Source: Promethearchaeota archaeon
Lineage (GTDB): Archaea > Asgardarchaeota > Lokiarchaeia > Sigyniarchaeales > SOKP01
Reading direction: 5' to 3'
DNA length: 34,704 nucleotides
Assembly: GCA_020344955.1 (NCBI GenBank)
Contig: CP070831.1
Coordinates: 2,088,434 to 2,123,137 of the forward strand
The translations under genes and the position numbers were made by a program. The notes under the pieces are model-generated. The model searched no databases. It was not told where the DNA came from and was given only the letters and a program-made list of their open reading frames with translations. This document shows positions 5,035 through 34,704 of the stretch, piece by piece. The first letter of the stretch is position 1, and each line of letters starts with the position of its first letter.

Positions 5035-6503
5035 TTTTCACTGATACCTCCTCTTTCACTTTTCATCATTATATCCTTTGTTTTACCTATCAAAAAATTA
5101 GTATCTTCCCCTCTTTTGGTGATATCTTCATATTTTTTATTTAGTTCTCTTGAAAGAATTTCAATGACACGAGGTCGACAGAATCCTCCTTGACATCTAC
5201 CCATCCCAGGTCTACATCGAAATTTAATTCCATCTACAGTATTGGCTCCCACTGGTGCATGTATAGAATTAATAATTTCCTTTTCAGGAATAGTTTCACA
5301 ACGACAAATAATTCTCCCCCAAGCAGGATCTTCTTGAATCTTTTTGTCAAGTTGTTCCTTTGTAAAGTCTTCAAAACGCTCAGGTTTAGGTCTAATTGGA
5401 TTATAATTTGCTTTGACTTTTAACTCTAAGCCTAATAGTTCAAGGAATTCAACAACCTTTTCAGCAATCGCAAATGTTGCTGTCAAACCGGGCGATAAAA
5501 TACCCGCTACATTAATGAAACCATATACATCTGTATTATCAATTATAAAATCATAAGTATCTGGAACAGCTCTTAATCCAGCGAAATTTCTAATTGAGCT
5601 TCTTACAGGAAGATTTGGAACTAATTTCATACCTCCATCTAAGATTTCCTTTAAACCAGCAGTGGTTGTCGAAATATCTTCGCGATCAGTCATATTTTGA
5701 GCATTAGGTCCTACAAAAGTGTTGCCATGTAATGTAGGACAAACTAATATTCCTTTTGATACTTTTGTAGGAATTGGGAATAAGATCTTATTCAATTGGA
5801 TAGCATTTCGATCAAAGAGAATATATTCCCCCTTTCTTGGCATAATACTAAAATAATCTAACCCCAACATTTTAGAAATTTTCGCAGCATATAATCCAGC
5901 AGCATTTATGAGATTTCGTCCCTGAAATTCACCTTGATATGTTCTTACTGTGAAAACATAATCCTGATGTTTAATTTTTACAACCTCATGATTTCTGAAA
6001 AATTTTACCCCATTCATAGCAGCGTTTTCAGCTAAAGCAAATGTCAATTCATAAGGGCTGGCAAGTCCAGCAGTAGGTGCATGTAAAACGCCCACAACCT
6101 CGCCAGTTAAATTTGGTTCCAATTTTTTTATCTGTTTCTTATCCAATATTACTTCTAAGTCAGGAATGCCATCTTCAACGCCTTTTTTTCGTTCTTCTTC
6201 TAATTGCTTAATTTGATTGTCCTCTAATGCTACTACAAAAGAACCAATTCGCTTGAAGGGGAAATTCAGTTCTTGAGCTGCTTGATTATATAATTTATTT
6301 CCTTTAATACATAAATATCGCTTAATGTATTCTCTTGAAGAAGCATATCCAGCATGAATCACACCAGAATTAGCTTTGGTAGTTCCAGAAGCAACCTCCG
6401 CTTCTTTTTCTAGTAAACAAATTTCTAAATCATATTTTGAAAGCGTACGAGCTATACAACAACCAGTAACTCCGCCTCCAATTATTATTACATCGTAAAT
6501 CAA
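5031..6503 (-). CDS. GlpA-like FAD-dependent glycerol-3-phosphate dehydrogenase with BFD [2Fe-2S] domain
   Basis: This 490-residue protein has an N-terminal DAO-type FAD domain with IIGGGVTG at 7-14, ASGTTKANSGVIHAGY at 38-53 and a C-terminal FAD contact block near GFINVAGILSPGLT (328-341). A BFD-like Fer2 domain follows, with cysteines C400-x-C402 and C437-x4-C442 (GRCQGGFC). This architecture is that of anaerobic glycerol-3-phosphate dehydrogenase GlpA and its relatives (TM1432 type), oxidising sn-glycerol 3-phosphate to DHAP. Related enzymes act on 2-hydroxyglutarate or other hydroxy acids, so the substrate is not certain. The start is TTG at 6503, placed directly before the conserved YDVIIIGGG strand. 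It is the first gene of a three-gene operon. Confidence 0.85.
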   Translation of the reverse strand: MIYDVIIIGGGVTGCCIARTLSKYDLEICLLEKEAEVASGTTKANSGVIHAGYASSREYIKRYLCIKGNKLYNQAAQELNFPFKRIGSFVVALEDNQIKQLEEERKKGVEDGIPDLEVILDKKQIKKLEPNLTGEVVGVLHAPTAGLASPYELTFALAENAAMNGVKFFRNHEVVKIKHQDYVFTVRTYQGEFQGRNLINAAGLYAAKISKMLGLDYFSIMPRKGEYILFDRNAIQLNKILFPIPTKVSKGILVCPTLHGNTFVGPNAQNMTDREDISTTTAGLKEILDGGMKLVPNLPVRSSIRNFAGLRAVPDTYDFIIDNTDVYGFINVAGILSPGLTATFAIAEKVVEFLELLGLELKVKANYNPIRPKPERFEDFTKEQLDKKIQEDPAWGRIICRCETIPEKEIINSIHAPVGANTVDGIKFRCRPGMGRCQGGFCRPRVIEILSRELNKKYEDITKRGEDTNFLIGKTKDIMMKSERGGISEK

Positions 6504-30244: not shown

Positions 30245-30643
30245 TTAGCCAATTATAGAGTATTCTAATTCACTTAAATAATAAGATAATAGTTCAATCA
30301 ATTTCTTAAATTTATCTAAAGCAACATTATGAGAAGTAGTAATAGGAAAAACAGCTATTAATTTTTTATTTTGATAAAAAGATTTTATTAAAAGAAAAAA
30401 GCCTGTATCTTCTCTATTATTTATTTCAGAACAAAAAATTGTTTGGATTTTTGTCTGATAATCTAAAAGTATTTTAAAATCTTCTGAAAGTAATTTAATA
30501 ACATTATACAATTTCATAAGTTCAATATCATAAGGTTTTGCGATATAATCTCTTTTTTTAGAGAATATTTCATTATCATATTGATCAATTAAAATACAAG
30601 AGATCACATCAGATTGTTCAAATAATAAATCAAAAAATATCAT
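30245..30643 (-). CDS. Small alpha/beta protein, possibly roadblock-like
   Basis: This 132-residue protein begins with strand-turn-strand ISCILIDQYDNEIFSKK (14-30). A long helix follows (about 38-60), then strands around QTIFCSEI and GFFLLIKSFYQNKKLIAVFPIT (81-102) and a C-terminal helix. The order beta-beta-alpha-beta-beta-beta-alpha is that of roadblock/LC7 domains, which in Asgard archaea often partner small GTPases. Sequence similarity to the longin-like protein at 7102-7488 is only in fold order. The start is ATG at 30643 with AAAGGG 6 nt upstream. Family assignment is tentative. Confidence 0.45.
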   Translation of the reverse strand: MIFFDLLFEQSDVISCILIDQYDNEIFSKKRDYIAKPYDIELMKLYNVIKLLSEDFKILLDYQTKIQTIFCSEINNREDTGFFLLIKSFYQNKKLIAVFPITTSHNVALDKFKKLIELLSYYLSELEYSIIG

Positions 30644-30825
30644 AATTTCCCTTTTAAAACTAGTTATATTTATCTTATTGCACCATATATGATTTTACCT
30701 TTAACTTAGAAAATAGATATATTTTTATAAAGAATTAAGGTATGTTTTTTCCCAATTATGAAATTTTTATTAAAAAAATCATAGAATTAAATAAGATGGT
30801 TTCATGTTAATTAAAAAAACTTAGT

Positions 30826-32091
30826 TTATTTCTGACTGAAATAATCAGCTTCTAAGTTTGGAAATATTTTCTTCTTTCTTCCGTCTTTTTCAAAATGAAC
30901 TAAATCAAGTTCTTCCAATTTTTTAATATGATATAAGATTGTTTTATGATCAACTTTGAGTTTTTTCGTGATTAAACTGTTCCAAATTCCAGGATCTTTT
31001 TCTATTATTTCTAAGATTTCTAAGGTTAATTTGCTCTTTTGTAAGGTTATATCAACATTTGAAATTGGATTTTTTTGATAATAAGGAAAATACGCAAGAA
31101 TATTTCCAATTCTTTTCTTACCTATTACTTTATATGTTAATAAGATATCCAAATGCCATACCAAGTTTCCTGCTGCTAATCCAGTTTTCCTTAGCAATTC
31201 ATTAAAATGGATACCAGGTTCATCCAGAATCAAATCTATTATTCTATTTCTATTCTCATTCTCTAACACTTCATCTAAGGATAATCTGTGAGCTCCTTTC
31301 TCAATTGGTACTGTTCTTGTTCTTAAATATCGAAAATAATCTTTTTTAGAAATTAAAACTACTAAGGAAATAATTCCAATGGCTATAAATGAAATTAAAA
31401 CCATTAACCAAATCCAATCCTCCTGAACAATCCCTATTTCAAAGATAGTAATGTAGTATTCAGTATCTTGTTGTAGGTTCGTAAGAGAACTTTCTAAATA
31501 TTTTTCAGAACTAGTTTCATTAACTAATTCGATTGTTTCAATTAACTCCCATGAATCCTGATTAGATTCATAAATTGCTAAAGAAAATGAAGATTCTGGA
31601 TTTAAACCATAATACTGTAATTTCTTATATTGAATAGTCAAGTTTTCAATTGATGTATTCGATATTACTTGATAAATACAGTTGTATCTATATTGATATC
31701 TAAAATTACCTCTCTTAGGCTCTTGTGGAGGTTGAATCACCCCAAAGCTTTGTAGATTTGCTTTAGATGATACATTAAGGGAAATTGGATTAGAATTATT
31801 AATTATAAAAAAAGTTTGACGATTTTCAATATTATTCTCATATTCAATGGATAGATCAATTTGAATATCTGTAGAAATTTGAAAAGTGAGACTATTATTA
31901 AAATAATATGATACTTTTTCTTTGGCATAAATTGTATCCTGAATTGAAAAACCCGTGATAGTCTCTCTACGAGCATTCGCTATTAATAGAAAAGAATTGA
32001 ATCCAATAAATATTATAAAGAGGATTAGAGTGCTATACCTATAGATTTTCCTTTTTACTCCTCTAAAACTACCCAACTGTATTCTTTCCAA
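30826..32091 (-). CDS. Membrane-tethered tandem winged-helix regulator with extracytoplasmic sensor domain
   Basis: This 421-residue protein is laid out as a one-component transmembrane regulator. TM1 is at about 20-40, an extracytoplasmic beta-rich domain with many N-x-S/T sites at 41-225, TM2 at 226-248, a basic linker, a first wHTH at about 275-338 (IHFNELLRKTGLAAGNLVWHLDIL) and a second at about 350-412 (ITKKLKVDHKTILYHIKKLEEL). Both wHTHs carry the archaeal 'VxxHLxxL' recognition-helix pattern. The ectodomain aligns by eye with residues 47-195 of the upstream neighbour (32143-32823). The gap to it is only 51 bp, so one operon is likely. The start is TTG at 32091. Signal and target genes are unknown. 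Confidence 0.75.
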   Translation of the reverse strand: MERIQLGSFRGVKRKIYRYSTLILFIIFIGFNSFLLIANARRETITGFSIQDTIYAKEKVSYYFNNSLTFQISTDIQIDLSIEYENNIENRQTFFIINNSNPISLNVSSKANLQSFGVIQPPQEPKRGNFRYQYRYNCIYQVISNTSIENLTIQYKKLQYYGLNPESSFSLAIYESNQDSWELIETIELVNETSSEKYLESSLTNLQQDTEYYITIFEIGIVQEDWIWLMVLISFIAIGIISLVVLISKKDYFRYLRTRTVPIEKGAHRLSLDEVLENENRNRIIDLILDEPGIHFNELLRKTGLAAGNLVWHLDILLTYKVIGKKRIGNILAYFPYYQKNPISNVDITLQKSKLTLEILEIIEKDPGIWNSLITKKLKVDHKTILYHIKKLEELDLVHFEKDGRKKKIFPNLEADYFSQK

Positions 32092-32142
32092 TATCTTTAA
32101 TTATTATATAACAATATTAAAAAAAAAATTTATTGAATATTT

Positions 32143-32823
32143 TTATTTTCTTTTTCTAAGCAATAACACTGTAATTAATGCAATTATTCCTATTATTCCT
32201 CCGATGCTAATAACAATTATAAGAGTAGTATCTGGTTGTGGAATTAATATTGTCCAATAAGAGAAACCGCTTGTTTCAGTAACTAAAAAGCCTTCTTCTA
32301 ATGTAGTTGCTACAGTTTCCCATGATTTAATTTGTTCATTATAGCGAGCCCATTGTCCATTTTGATTTCGGTGGTTTGATTGAAGTTTAAGTTTTGCGAC
32401 ACAGGTACCATTACATTGTATTTGTATACAGAATCCTTCTTCATATAAATATCGATATCTATTTCTTAATCTATATGTGAATCCCTTCATTAAGCCAAGT
32501 TGCACTTGTTCTTCTGTGCAAGTCATATTCATTAATAATGGACCTGAACCATTCACTTCTATAATAAAATTTTTAGATCCAATTTTTGATGCTTCACAAT
32601 TAATCACTCCTTCAATATCTACATCAGTAATGAATGTCAAACGAGTTTGTGTCATGTATCTGAACATTACTTGACTATTGGCTTCAACTTGGTATTGATA
32701 AGCAGTTTCGTCGTTCACAGGAATTTCAGTTGGATCAACAGCTAGAGCACTAGTTATATTGAAAATTGAAAATAGCATTAGGAAAACAAAAACTCCAAGT
32801 GTTATTTTACTAATTTTTCTCAT
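32143..32823 (-). CDS. Membrane-anchored extracytoplasmic protein, paralogous to the ectodomain of the adjacent regulator
   Basis: This 226-residue protein has a signal peptide (1-28, cleavage near ALA-VD), a beta-rich domain (about 40-195) with five cysteines (C76, C102, C132, C137, C141) that may form disulfides, and one C-terminal TM helix (200-222) ending RKRK. The domain shares with the next gene the pattern TF-x-TD-DI, NG/NN-x-(G/N)P-L-x-(M/L)N(M/V), then RYRY...(I/Q)Q and SWE(T/L)...T. The regulator copy lacks most of the cysteines. It is the first gene of the probable two-gene operon. It may be the sensed ligand-binding partner or a decoy of the regulator; this is inference. Confidence 0.7.
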   Translation of the reverse strand: MRKISKITLGVFVFLMLFSIFNITSALAVDPTEIPVNDETAYQYQVEANSQVMFRYMTQTRLTFITDVDIEGVINCEASKIGSKNFIIEVNGSGPLLMNMTCTEEQVQLGLMKGFTYRLRNRYRYLYEEGFCIQIQCNGTCVAKLKLQSNHRNQNGQWARYNEQIKSWETVATTLEEGFLVTETSGFSYWTILIPQPDTTLIIVISIGGIIGIIALITVLLLRKRK

Positions 32824-33138
32824 TTTGTTATTAAAACTCTTAATTTGTTCTACTTTGCAAAAAAGAAAGTAGTCTTAAAAGCATTAAGGAATAATTATCC
32901 CCAATTAAACCAAATTGGAGTATTACAAATAAGTATAATTAAAAATTGCATTTATTAACAAGATTAGGCTTAACGATAAACTCAATTAGAATTCCATAAA
33001 AAACGTACTTTAAACTAAAATTTTAATATTATAATTTTGAAAATATTATTAAAGATTTTCAAATTAAAATATTTATATGGAATTCATCTTAAATCTAATT
33101 TAATTTGAATCCTAATTCTTACTAATGGAGAAAATTTT
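32824..33138. other. 315-bp divergent intergenic region
   Basis: No gene is seen. An inverted repeat CCAATT-aaacca-AATTGG (32901-32918) lies about 80 bp upstream of the sensor operon. The right end carries a strong TATA box (33067-33078) and a ribosome-binding site (GGAG, 33127-33130) for the coiled-coil gene. Confidence 0.5.
33067..33078 (+). promoter_or_regulatory. TATA box of the wHTH coiled-coil gene
   Basis: aaatatttatat, set in a long A/T tract and followed by GG, lies about 60-70 bp before the ATG at 33139. It predicts a start of transcription near 33102 and a leader of about 35 nt containing GGAG. Confidence 0.5.
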
Positions 33139-34704
33139 ATGTCATTAAAAGATTTCACTAAAGAAGTATTCACTAGATATGGATTTACTGAAGATCATAT
33201 CAACATCTATTTAGTCTATTTAAGAGTTCCCCGAGCTACCACTTCCGAAGTCTATATGACTTTAACGGACGAACATGAAGATTTACAGTATGAAACTGTA
33301 TTAGAGGTTACCAATTGGTTAGTTGAGAAAGGGTTCCTTAAGAGAATTGAAGGTATTGTTGATAGGTATATTCCACTCCAACCTTATTTTGAATTATTTA
33401 CAACTGAATCTGAAAATTTTAGAAATGAAATTGCCAAAATTAAAGACTCAATCTTGGCTGATCAATCTGACCGATTTGAAAAGCTAGAAGCAATTCAAGA
33501 TAAAAGCATCGGTGAAGTAGAAAAAGCAGTTGATACCCAAATTAAATCCTTTTTTGGAGATTCTGATTCAAAAAATAATACCAAACGGAACCGAATTGAT
33601 AGTGCTACAAATCGCTTTAATGAGACTACCAAGGCACTAGAAAGTGATATCCATAGTATAATGGATAACTTAAATTCAAATTTAAAAAACATCTCAGAAA
33701 CAAGTGTTACCAAAAATGAATCTGAAATTACTAAAACTAAAGATAATTTAACTACTTTAGTTTCTAATTTATTAAGCGATTTTTCAACTAGAGTCGAAAA
33801 TTTAGACAAAGAGTTGAAAATGGAGCTGGATGAACATGTAGAAAGACATAAAAACACTGCAAACCAGCTAAAACCCAAAATGGAACAAATACTTGAAAAA
33901 TACTTAGAACGAATGGATAAAGTTGTTACCGATTTAAAAGCTAAAATTTCGAATTTATTAAAAGAACATATTACTCATGTGAAGAATACTACAGATACAC
34001 TCCAAGTAAAATTAAAAGCCATAGTCGATGAGAGACATAGAGTTTTGACAGACCAAACAAATGATTTTAAAAGTATGACTCTCACTTTGATCGATAATTT
34101 ACTTGAACATGCAAATAGGTTCACAGATTTTTCAGAAGAAATGGCAAAGAAAGGATTTTTCTGGATGGGTAAAAAGAAGAAATATAAAGCACGACATGAA
34201 ACTACAATACAAAATATACTGAAATTTACGGAACCAATGAAACCTGATTTTACTAATACATGTGATACTTACATTGCTGATACCAGAGGAACCACAGACA
34301 ATATAAAGGCTGATTTAACTGACACAATGACTAATGAAAATGAGGGATTATCTACAGAAACAAATGATCTTGACTATCGGGCTCAAGAAACTATAGAGGC
34401 TCAACTTGAAACCCTCGCAACCGATTTAGCTGGAGAAGTAGATGATACTTTACAAACTGGTGTAAAGGATTGTTCGGATACAAGAATAAAATTAAAAGAC
34501 TCTCTAGAACGCTCATTAAATCAACATCATAATCAGTATGATACTGCGATAAATAGTCATAAAGAAAATTCATTGAAACATTATACTGATTTTGACTTAG
34601 AAGTTAAAAGAATAAGCGCAGATTGGACTAGAGATGTCAATGCAAACTTCGATAATGGTAAAAGAGATTGCTCAGAGAAAATTGACAGTGAAATTAGATT
34701 ATGG
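33139..34704 (+). CDS. TrmB-like wHTH fused to a very long coiled coil, 3' end cut by window edge
   Basis: An ATG at 33139 opens a frame of 522 codons without a stop to the last base, so the gene is partial. Residues 1-95 look like a TrmB/MarR-type winged helix (KEVFTRYGFTEDHINIYLVYLR, then VTNWLVEKGFLKRIEG and a wing ending YIPLQPY). Residues 95-522 are almost wholly helical, with heptad-like spacing and high Thr, Asp, Asn and Lys content. One non-helical basic-aromatic patch, GFFWMGKKKKYKARH, lies at about 339-353. There is no membrane segment. Long-coil wHTH proteins of this kind are seen in Asgard archaea, function unknown; a chromatin or scaffold role is inference. A strong promoter and GGAG support the start. 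Confidence 0.75.
   Translation, partial: MSLKDFTKEVFTRYGFTEDHINIYLVYLRVPRATTSEVYMTLTDEHEDLQYETVLEVTNWLVEKGFLKRIEGIVDRYIPLQPYFELFTTESENFRNEIAKIKDSILADQSDRFEKLEAIQDKSIGEVEKAVDTQIKSFFGDSDSKNNTKRNRIDSATNRFNETTKALESDIHSIMDNLNSNLKNISETSVTKNESEITKTKDNLTTLVSNLLSDFSTRVENLDKELKMELDEHVERHKNTANQLKPKMEQILEKYLERMDKVVTDLKAKISNLLKEHITHVKNTTDTLQVKLKAIVDERHRVLTDQTNDFKSMTLTLIDNLLEHANRFTDFSEEMAKKGFFWMGKKKKYKARHETTIQNILKFTEPMKPDFTNTCDTYIADTRGTTDNIKADLTDTMTNENEGLSTETNDLDYRAQETIEAQLETLATDLAGEVDDTLQTGVKDCSDTRIKLKDSLERSLNQHHNQYDTAINSHKENSLKHYTDFDLEVKRISADWTRDVNANFDNGKRDCSEKIDSEIRLW

Follow-up and report, generated by a model that had tools for sequence, protein, structure and literature searches.

The closest described counterparts of the locus analyzed here are the bacterial co-component systems, in which a membrane-tethered winged helix-turn-helix (wHTH) regulator is paired with a membrane-anchored co-sensor; ToxR/ToxS, TcpP/TcpH, and VtrA/VtrC all share this layout (PMC9214523, PMC10624426, PMC11323476), and the claim of a first-pass annotation that no such system had been described does not hold. 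Within these pairs, TcpH protects TcpP and ToxS protects ToxR from proteolysis (PMC11323476, PMC10624426). Here we analyze an archaeal gene pair of comparable layout in a 34,704-nt stretch of DNA (the window), taken from a Lokiarchaeal genome that is a single contig of 3.34 Mb. Lokiarchaea are related to the ancestors of complex cells. To our knowledge, little has been established about surface and partner sensing in Asgard archaea; the pair is a concrete, conserved sensor candidate, for which an operator and a small set of target genes are predicted here.

The first-pass annotation had reported two neighboring minus-strand genes with a 51-nt gap, and both open reading frames were recovered: the partner gene, P1, at positions 32143 to 32823 of the window (226 aa), and the regulator gene, P2, at positions 30826 to 32091 (421 aa, TTG start). 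Transmembrane (TM) segments were placed by hydropathy together with structure models. P1 consists of a signal peptide (residues ∼1 to 28), an ectodomain (∼29 to 197), one TM helix (∼198 to 221), and a basic tail, RKRK; it matched no family in Pfam or NCBIfam. P2 consists of a signal anchor or signal peptide (∼18 to 34), an ectodomain (∼36 to 225, with the region homologous to the P1 ectodomain encoded at 31417 to 31986 on the minus strand), a TM segment (∼227 to 249), and two wHTH domains. The first of these (residues 278 to 336; 31084 to 31260, minus strand) matched Pfam HTH_HVO_0163_N (PF24266) with 58.1 bits against a curated cutoff of 31 (whole-protein E = 9.4e-16), and the same family was matched by 22/22 members of the alignment. 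The second (residues 354 to 398, reaching ∼410; 30862 to 31032, minus strand) matched HTH_24 (PF13412) above the Pfam cutoff (whole-protein E = 1.2e-12). The tandem wHTH part of the originally proposed TM-ectodomain-TM-wHTH-wHTH arrangement is thus supported by Pfam. Its N-terminal TM segment may instead be a cleaved signal peptide, since an A/V-x-A motif closes the N-terminal hydrophobic stretch in most homologues; P2 would then read SP-ecto-TM-wHTH-wHTH, with the same topology as P1. One P1 copy in another locus (L024, 2392 to 3261) is interrupted by a run of N and has its TM stretch in duplicate, probably as the result of an assembly join. On the other side of P1, its divergent neighbor (window 33139 to 34704, plus strand) combines an N-terminal wHTH with a long coiled coil. 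In most relatives this neighbor is a single 751-aa ORF (58 to 88% identical), and here it is two overlapping ORFs (L029, 6573 to 8261 and 8135 to 9073), a split that reflects either an assembly frameshift or a real break.

The ectodomains of P1 and P2 are homologous. Their alignment, originally made by eye, was reproduced by BLASTP (E = 3e-6 across 154 residues). Comparison of the two ectodomains with hhalign gave a probability of 97.7 (E = 1.3e-12), and profile-profile comparison with deeper alignments (41 and 49 sequences) raised it to 99.5 (E = 3.3e-22); a P1 profile alone also detected the ectodomains of P2 proteins from other genomes, with E values as low as 2.7e-13. AF2 models of P1 residues 27 to 226 (mean pLDDT, 90.6) and P2 residues 35 to 250 (mean pLDDT, 92.9) were both all-beta, followed by the TM helix. 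The predicted folds matched strand for strand: strand or non-strand state (DSSP), compared along the sequence alignment, agreed in 85% of 163 aligned columns, whereas a shifted-register null reached 49% on average and 63% at most. Searches of the PDB by fold returned no match with E ≤ 0.001 for either model, and no known family was found for the ectodomains in the PDB by sequence or in Pfam and NCBIfam. A weak likeness of P1 to a ZU5 tandem (TM, 0.35; E, 0.1 to 0.3) is not claimed. In a FastTree phylogeny, 41 P1 and 49 P2 ectodomains separated into two clades (support, 0.995) with no misplaced sequence, and this error-free split indicates that the two stem from a single duplication older than the order. 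A mirror-tree test for P1/P2 ectodomain co-divergence beyond shared ancestry gave a partial r of 0.22, a value reached by 113 of 2,000 permutations. P1 also carries a nearly invariant motif of its own, MNMTCTEEQ..LGL, which is missing from P2 and therefore suggests that P1 has a function of its own. This motif bears on a reading in which P1 has no ligand of its own and serves as a guard or chaperone, protecting P2 from proteolysis. Such a role has the same layout and is documented for TcpP/TcpH (PMC11323476) and ToxR/ToxS (PMC10624426); however, it sits poorly with the P1 motif, and we consider it quite improbable here.

Pairing of the two genes is conserved across the whole order, as a check of related genomes showed. 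Neither of the outcomes that the first-pass annotation had named as refuting its reading, differing ectodomain folds or a lack of conserved pairing, was therefore observed. In a one-genome-per-species collection, 23 loci encode P1, and P2 follows on the same strand in 22/22 whose contig continues; adjacency holds even where the wider neighborhood differs (L022, L023, L025, and L026). A P1 profile search of 228 genomes of the phylum, mostly metagenome bins, found P1 in 65, all from the order to which the window belongs, and a P2-type regulator adjoins it in 62 of these 65. In the remaining three (G099, G128, and G130), the contig ends at the P1 match. All named relatives found were Lokiarchaeia/Lokiarchaeota. 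Across the fetched loci, P2 comes after 90 of 94 P1 ORFs, a count that includes redundancy because some loci were fetched twice; the four exceptions are two contig ends and two orphan P1 copies (L028 and L099). The L028 orphan (5489 to 6334; G000:C1:275491-276321) is paralogous to P1 and has a Cys-rich C-x-C insert in its outer domain, and split P1 matches like it were seen in nine other genomes (G111, G112, G121, G126, G134, G136, G138, G142, and G152). The reverse case, P2 paralogues without P1, was found in L100, L109, L110, L129, and L130. Within the P1-P2 gap of the window lies a T10 tract (32119 to 32128, minus strand), a putative archaeal oligo-T terminator or attenuator. Runs of at least six T were present in 46/46 unique P1-P2 gaps (shuffle mean, 11), and runs of at least eight in 27/30 versus 20/126 other co-directional gaps (Fisher p = 1.8e-14), where the P1-P2 gaps, being homologous, are not independent of one another. 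The tract persists where the remainder of the gap has diverged. Since archaeal transcription is terminated by oligo-T tracts, P1 is probably made in excess over P2.

Cassettes of this layout also occur with different outer domains. At least three further ectodomain types, mutually unrelated, were found, together with one from another Asgard class that has soluble partners. In each, the regulator has the wHTH family of P2, an outer domain unrelated to that of P2, and a neighbor whose outer domain is homologous to its own. Regulator and neighbor ectodomains matched with E of ∼1e-40 in type T2 (L098, L101, L116, and L117), ∼1e-74 in T3 (L104 and L123), ∼1e-98 in T4 (L108, L113, L114, and L092, the last with its partner 5.6 kb distant), and ∼1e-57 in T6 (L126 and L150), the type of the other class, whose neighbors are secreted proteins without a C-terminal TM segment. 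As a control, 7 of 210 other ORFs of at least 200 aa in the same loci had an adjacent homologue. Ectodomain similarity between types was not detectable except between T5 and T2; T5 is accordingly not a separate type and belongs to T2 (E = 1e-37). The T3 outer domain is probably a beta-propeller, to judge from its repeats. Gene order differs by type, with the partner first in T2 and in the P1/P2 type (T1) and the regulator first in T3 and T4. Across T2 to T5, similarity among regulators and among partners of different genomes exceeds that between regulator and partner of one cassette, which indicates from these comparisons that the two copies kept separate roles; in T6, known from two genomes only, regulator-partner similarity is as high as regulator-regulator similarity. 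This recurrence with unrelated ectodomains further supports the importance of the partner.

Tethered regulators with another ectodomain type and without a homologous neighbor were also seen (L107, L118, L120 to L122, L124, and L125), as were two at contig ends (L111 and L119). An ectodomain match to a polytopic neighbor in L128 was excluded because it probably represents a tandem copy. In L104 (5500 to 12560), two tandem tethered regulators with repeat (beta-propeller-like) outer domains adjoin one SP-ecto-TM partner, which adds Ig/PKD-like repeats. Regulators of families f14 to f16 of the phylum carry different outer domains, to which their partners show no homology; regulator-partner homology in these cassettes (g1 to g3) was ruled out (hhalign probability, 0.1). 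The g1 partner is itself P1-like (hhalign probability, 98.1; E = 6.6e-14), and a P1-like partner beside an unrelated regulator outer domain is closer to the situation of ToxR/ToxS. Tethered wHTH regulators of other Asgard families (L132, 5487 to 8268; L135, 6088 to 8844; L160, 6246 to 9026; and relatives) have an outer domain Rossmann-like in appearance, followed by a nonhomologous SP-ecto-TM partner, and in one partner group of such families this is a tandem P1-like domain.

The promoter of P1 contains a conserved element, TGGGRAWAATTATTCCTCAATCCTTTTTATA, which was found ahead of P1 in 55/55 testable loci (the training set). The 200 nt upstream of P1 are divergent apart from one block with the consensus TGGGgAAAATTATTCCTCAATCCTTTTTATA, located 61 to 80 nt before the start codon; its first half is an imperfect dyad and its second half the BRE/TATA region. 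In the window, the operator-like element and TATA region (TGGGGATAATTATTCCTTAATGCTTTTAAGA; weight-matrix score, 39.3) lie at 32873 to 32903 on the minus strand, and a second operator-like element (TGGGAAAAAACATACCTTAATTCTTTATAAA; score, 23.6) lies past P2 at 30724 to 30754 on the same strand, before a 132-aa gene (30245 to 30643, minus strand). The span first annotated covers both P1 and P2 and leaves out these two sites. The 132-aa gene, whose homologue occurs only in the closest relative (L005) among P1 loci of the one-genome-per-species collection, is possibly part of the P1/P2 regulon, given the element in front of it; a similar element lies just past P2 in one other genome (G124, C9:559111-559137). 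A weight matrix trained only on T1 P1 promoters was scanned over 880 kb of other loci, with dinucleotide-block shuffles as the null (maximum score, 14.4). Matches above this value were P1 promoters, T4 partners (29.5, 29.2, and 28.0), a T4 regulator (19.1), and genes for small secreted neighbors of the P2 paralogues that lack P1 (26.7, 22.9, 22.2, 18.7, 16.4, and 16.1). These neighbors belong to one family of small secreted or N-anchored proteins encoded immediately next to those paralogues (L100, 9189 to 9779; L110, 7556 to 8128; L109, 4854 to 5411; L129, 5392 to 5973; and L130, 8150 to 8752), which constitutes either an alternative partner family or a target family. The element preceded 7/78 genes adjoining a regulator versus 3/481 elsewhere (Fisher p = 6.8e-5), and those three are cassette genes missed by the 700-bp rule: the distant T4 partner of L092 and genes of L109 and L110 that lie in the same strand run.

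A pattern search allowing up to three mismatches found six sites in the whole genome of the window, against none for the reversed pattern, and a looser pattern added a seventh. Most precede genes for surface or secreted proteins; the downstream products are P1, the orphan P1 paralogue with the Cys-rich insert, a NosD-like SP-TM protein, two secreted HExxH-motif proteins, an LVIVD-repeat protein, and one unclear case, all named from a reading of the sequences rather than from a family search. Hits to the pattern cluster in the family of the window; elsewhere in the phylum, outside the order, they are close to the control level. The element was found after inspection of promoters; what supports it independently is that it transfers to T4 and P2-paralogue cassettes and that it is rare genome-wide. 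The tethered wHTH protein is the sole component common to the T1, T4, and P2-paralogue cassettes and is therefore the best candidate reader of the element. Another regulator with a similar wHTH could read it, for example, a P2-like TM and tandem-wHTH protein without an outer domain (L030, 4715 to 6058; region of G000:C1:2337726-2338283). This protein adjoins a polytopic protein that by eye resembles an isoprenylcysteine/PEMT-type methyltransferase, and P2-like TM-wHTH matches of similar size occur in many genomes of the order. The distribution of the element also suits an arrangement of regulator and target, in which P1 is merely a P2-controlled surface protein that, as its shared ectodomain would imply, faces the same ligand or surface as P2 and takes no part in sensing: the element precedes P1 and several unrelated surface or secreted protein genes, the L028 orphan has it too, the small nonhomologous neighbors of P2 paralogues share it, and the oligo-T tract lies between P1 and P2. 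Such an arrangement alone, however, leaves unexplained why the neighbor is paralogous to the ectodomain of its regulator in at least four unrelated types, and we regard it as rather unlikely.

We instead propose, with moderate confidence, that P1 and P2 together make up a membrane-embedded, autoregulated sensor whose mode of action resembles that of bacterial co-component systems. P2 would be a membrane-held transcription factor that exposes a beta-rich domain to the outside and keeps both wHTH domains within the cell. P1, which lacks any DNA-binding part and joins a single TM helix to an outer domain paralogous to that of P2, would be its matched ectodomain partner. The outer domains most likely associate, either as a heteromer or in a mixed oligomer; this association would change with a ligand or with the state of the surface, such that the wHTH domains of P2 are positioned or dimerized. 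P2 would then act on the dyad element GGGRAWAATTATTCC abutting the BRE/TATA of the P1 promoter, which would close a feedback loop on its own partner, and on the same element at a few genes for surface or secreted proteins. The oligo-T tract behind P1 would leave P1 more abundant than P2. Since the element sits just upstream of the BRE/TATA, activation fits better than repression. The layout and the precedents of ToxR/ToxS, VtrA/VtrC, and TcpP/TcpH make a co-sensor role of P1 appear more likely than that of a bystander. The lack of DNA-binding domains in P1 and its suggested excess over P2 would also suit a decoy, or dominant-negative partner: a P1-P2 heterodimer without one DNA-binding half would hold P2 inactive, and P2 acting on the P1 promoter would give a negative feedback loop. 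A tandem wHTH could bind as a monomer, however, and we give the decoy little credence.

As a co-component-like sensor, the P1/P2 pair agrees with the known systems in several respects. Like VtrA/VtrC, ToxR/ToxS, and TcpP/TcpH, it is an adjacent two-gene cassette; P2 is a membrane-tethered HTH regulator with an extracytoplasmic domain, according to hydropathy and the structure model; and P1, like the co-component partners, has one TM segment, an extracytoplasmic domain, and no DNA-binding part. The known systems, in contrast, come from enteric bacteria and vibrios (PMC9214523, PMC10624426), and P1/P2 is archaeal. Known regulators have an N-terminal cytoplasmic wHTH of the OmpR/CadC (ToxR/CadC) type and one TM segment (PMC9214523, PMC10624426), whereas P2 has a C-terminal tandem of HTH_HVO_0163_N and HTH_24. 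In those systems, regulator and partner differ in fold and the partner is lipocalin-like (PMC9214523, PMC10624426), whereas the P1 and P2 ectodomains are paralogous; the P1 model is confident, and no lipocalin was among the 50 PDB matches listed for it, none of which had E ≤ 0.001. The P1/P2 cassette also differs in having the partner gene first, with the operator-like element before it. Tests of wHTH type, wHTH position, and partner fold all showed differences, which place P1/P2 outside the VtrA/VtrC superfamily.

P2 also fits the definition of the transmembrane transcription regulators of bacteria and archaea, which have a DNA-binding domain and at least one TM segment (PMC10269533). The survey of these regulators treats single proteins, and P2 has a paralogous-ectodomain partner; the searchable text of the survey contains no mention of Asgard or Lokiarchae and, in the parts consulted, no dedicated partner with a paralogous ectodomain (PMC10269533). 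ArnR and ArnR1 of Sulfolobus are, like P2, archaeal membrane-bound HTH regulators (PMC6396743), with the HTH in the N-terminal region (PMC13286277), whereas the wHTH domains of P2 span residues 278 to 398 of 421. Our search of the open-access literature turned up no publication in which an archaeal tethered regulator and its partner have paralogous ectodomains. We also know of no large ectodomain or paralogous partner for ArnR or ArnR1. More broadly, we see an even chance that Asgard archaea, including Lokiarchaea, possess a modular class of matched-ectodomain receptors. In these, tethered tandem-wHTH regulators of unrelated outer-domain folds would each have been matched, time and again, with a partner paralogous to their own outer domain and would control this partner through an operator abutting the BRE/TATA; such a pair would monitor the surface and switch the gene at the membrane without a kinase relay. 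Repeated matching of this kind, in unrelated ectodomain types, would carry the co-component concept past the enteric bacteria in which it was described and to another molecular solution.
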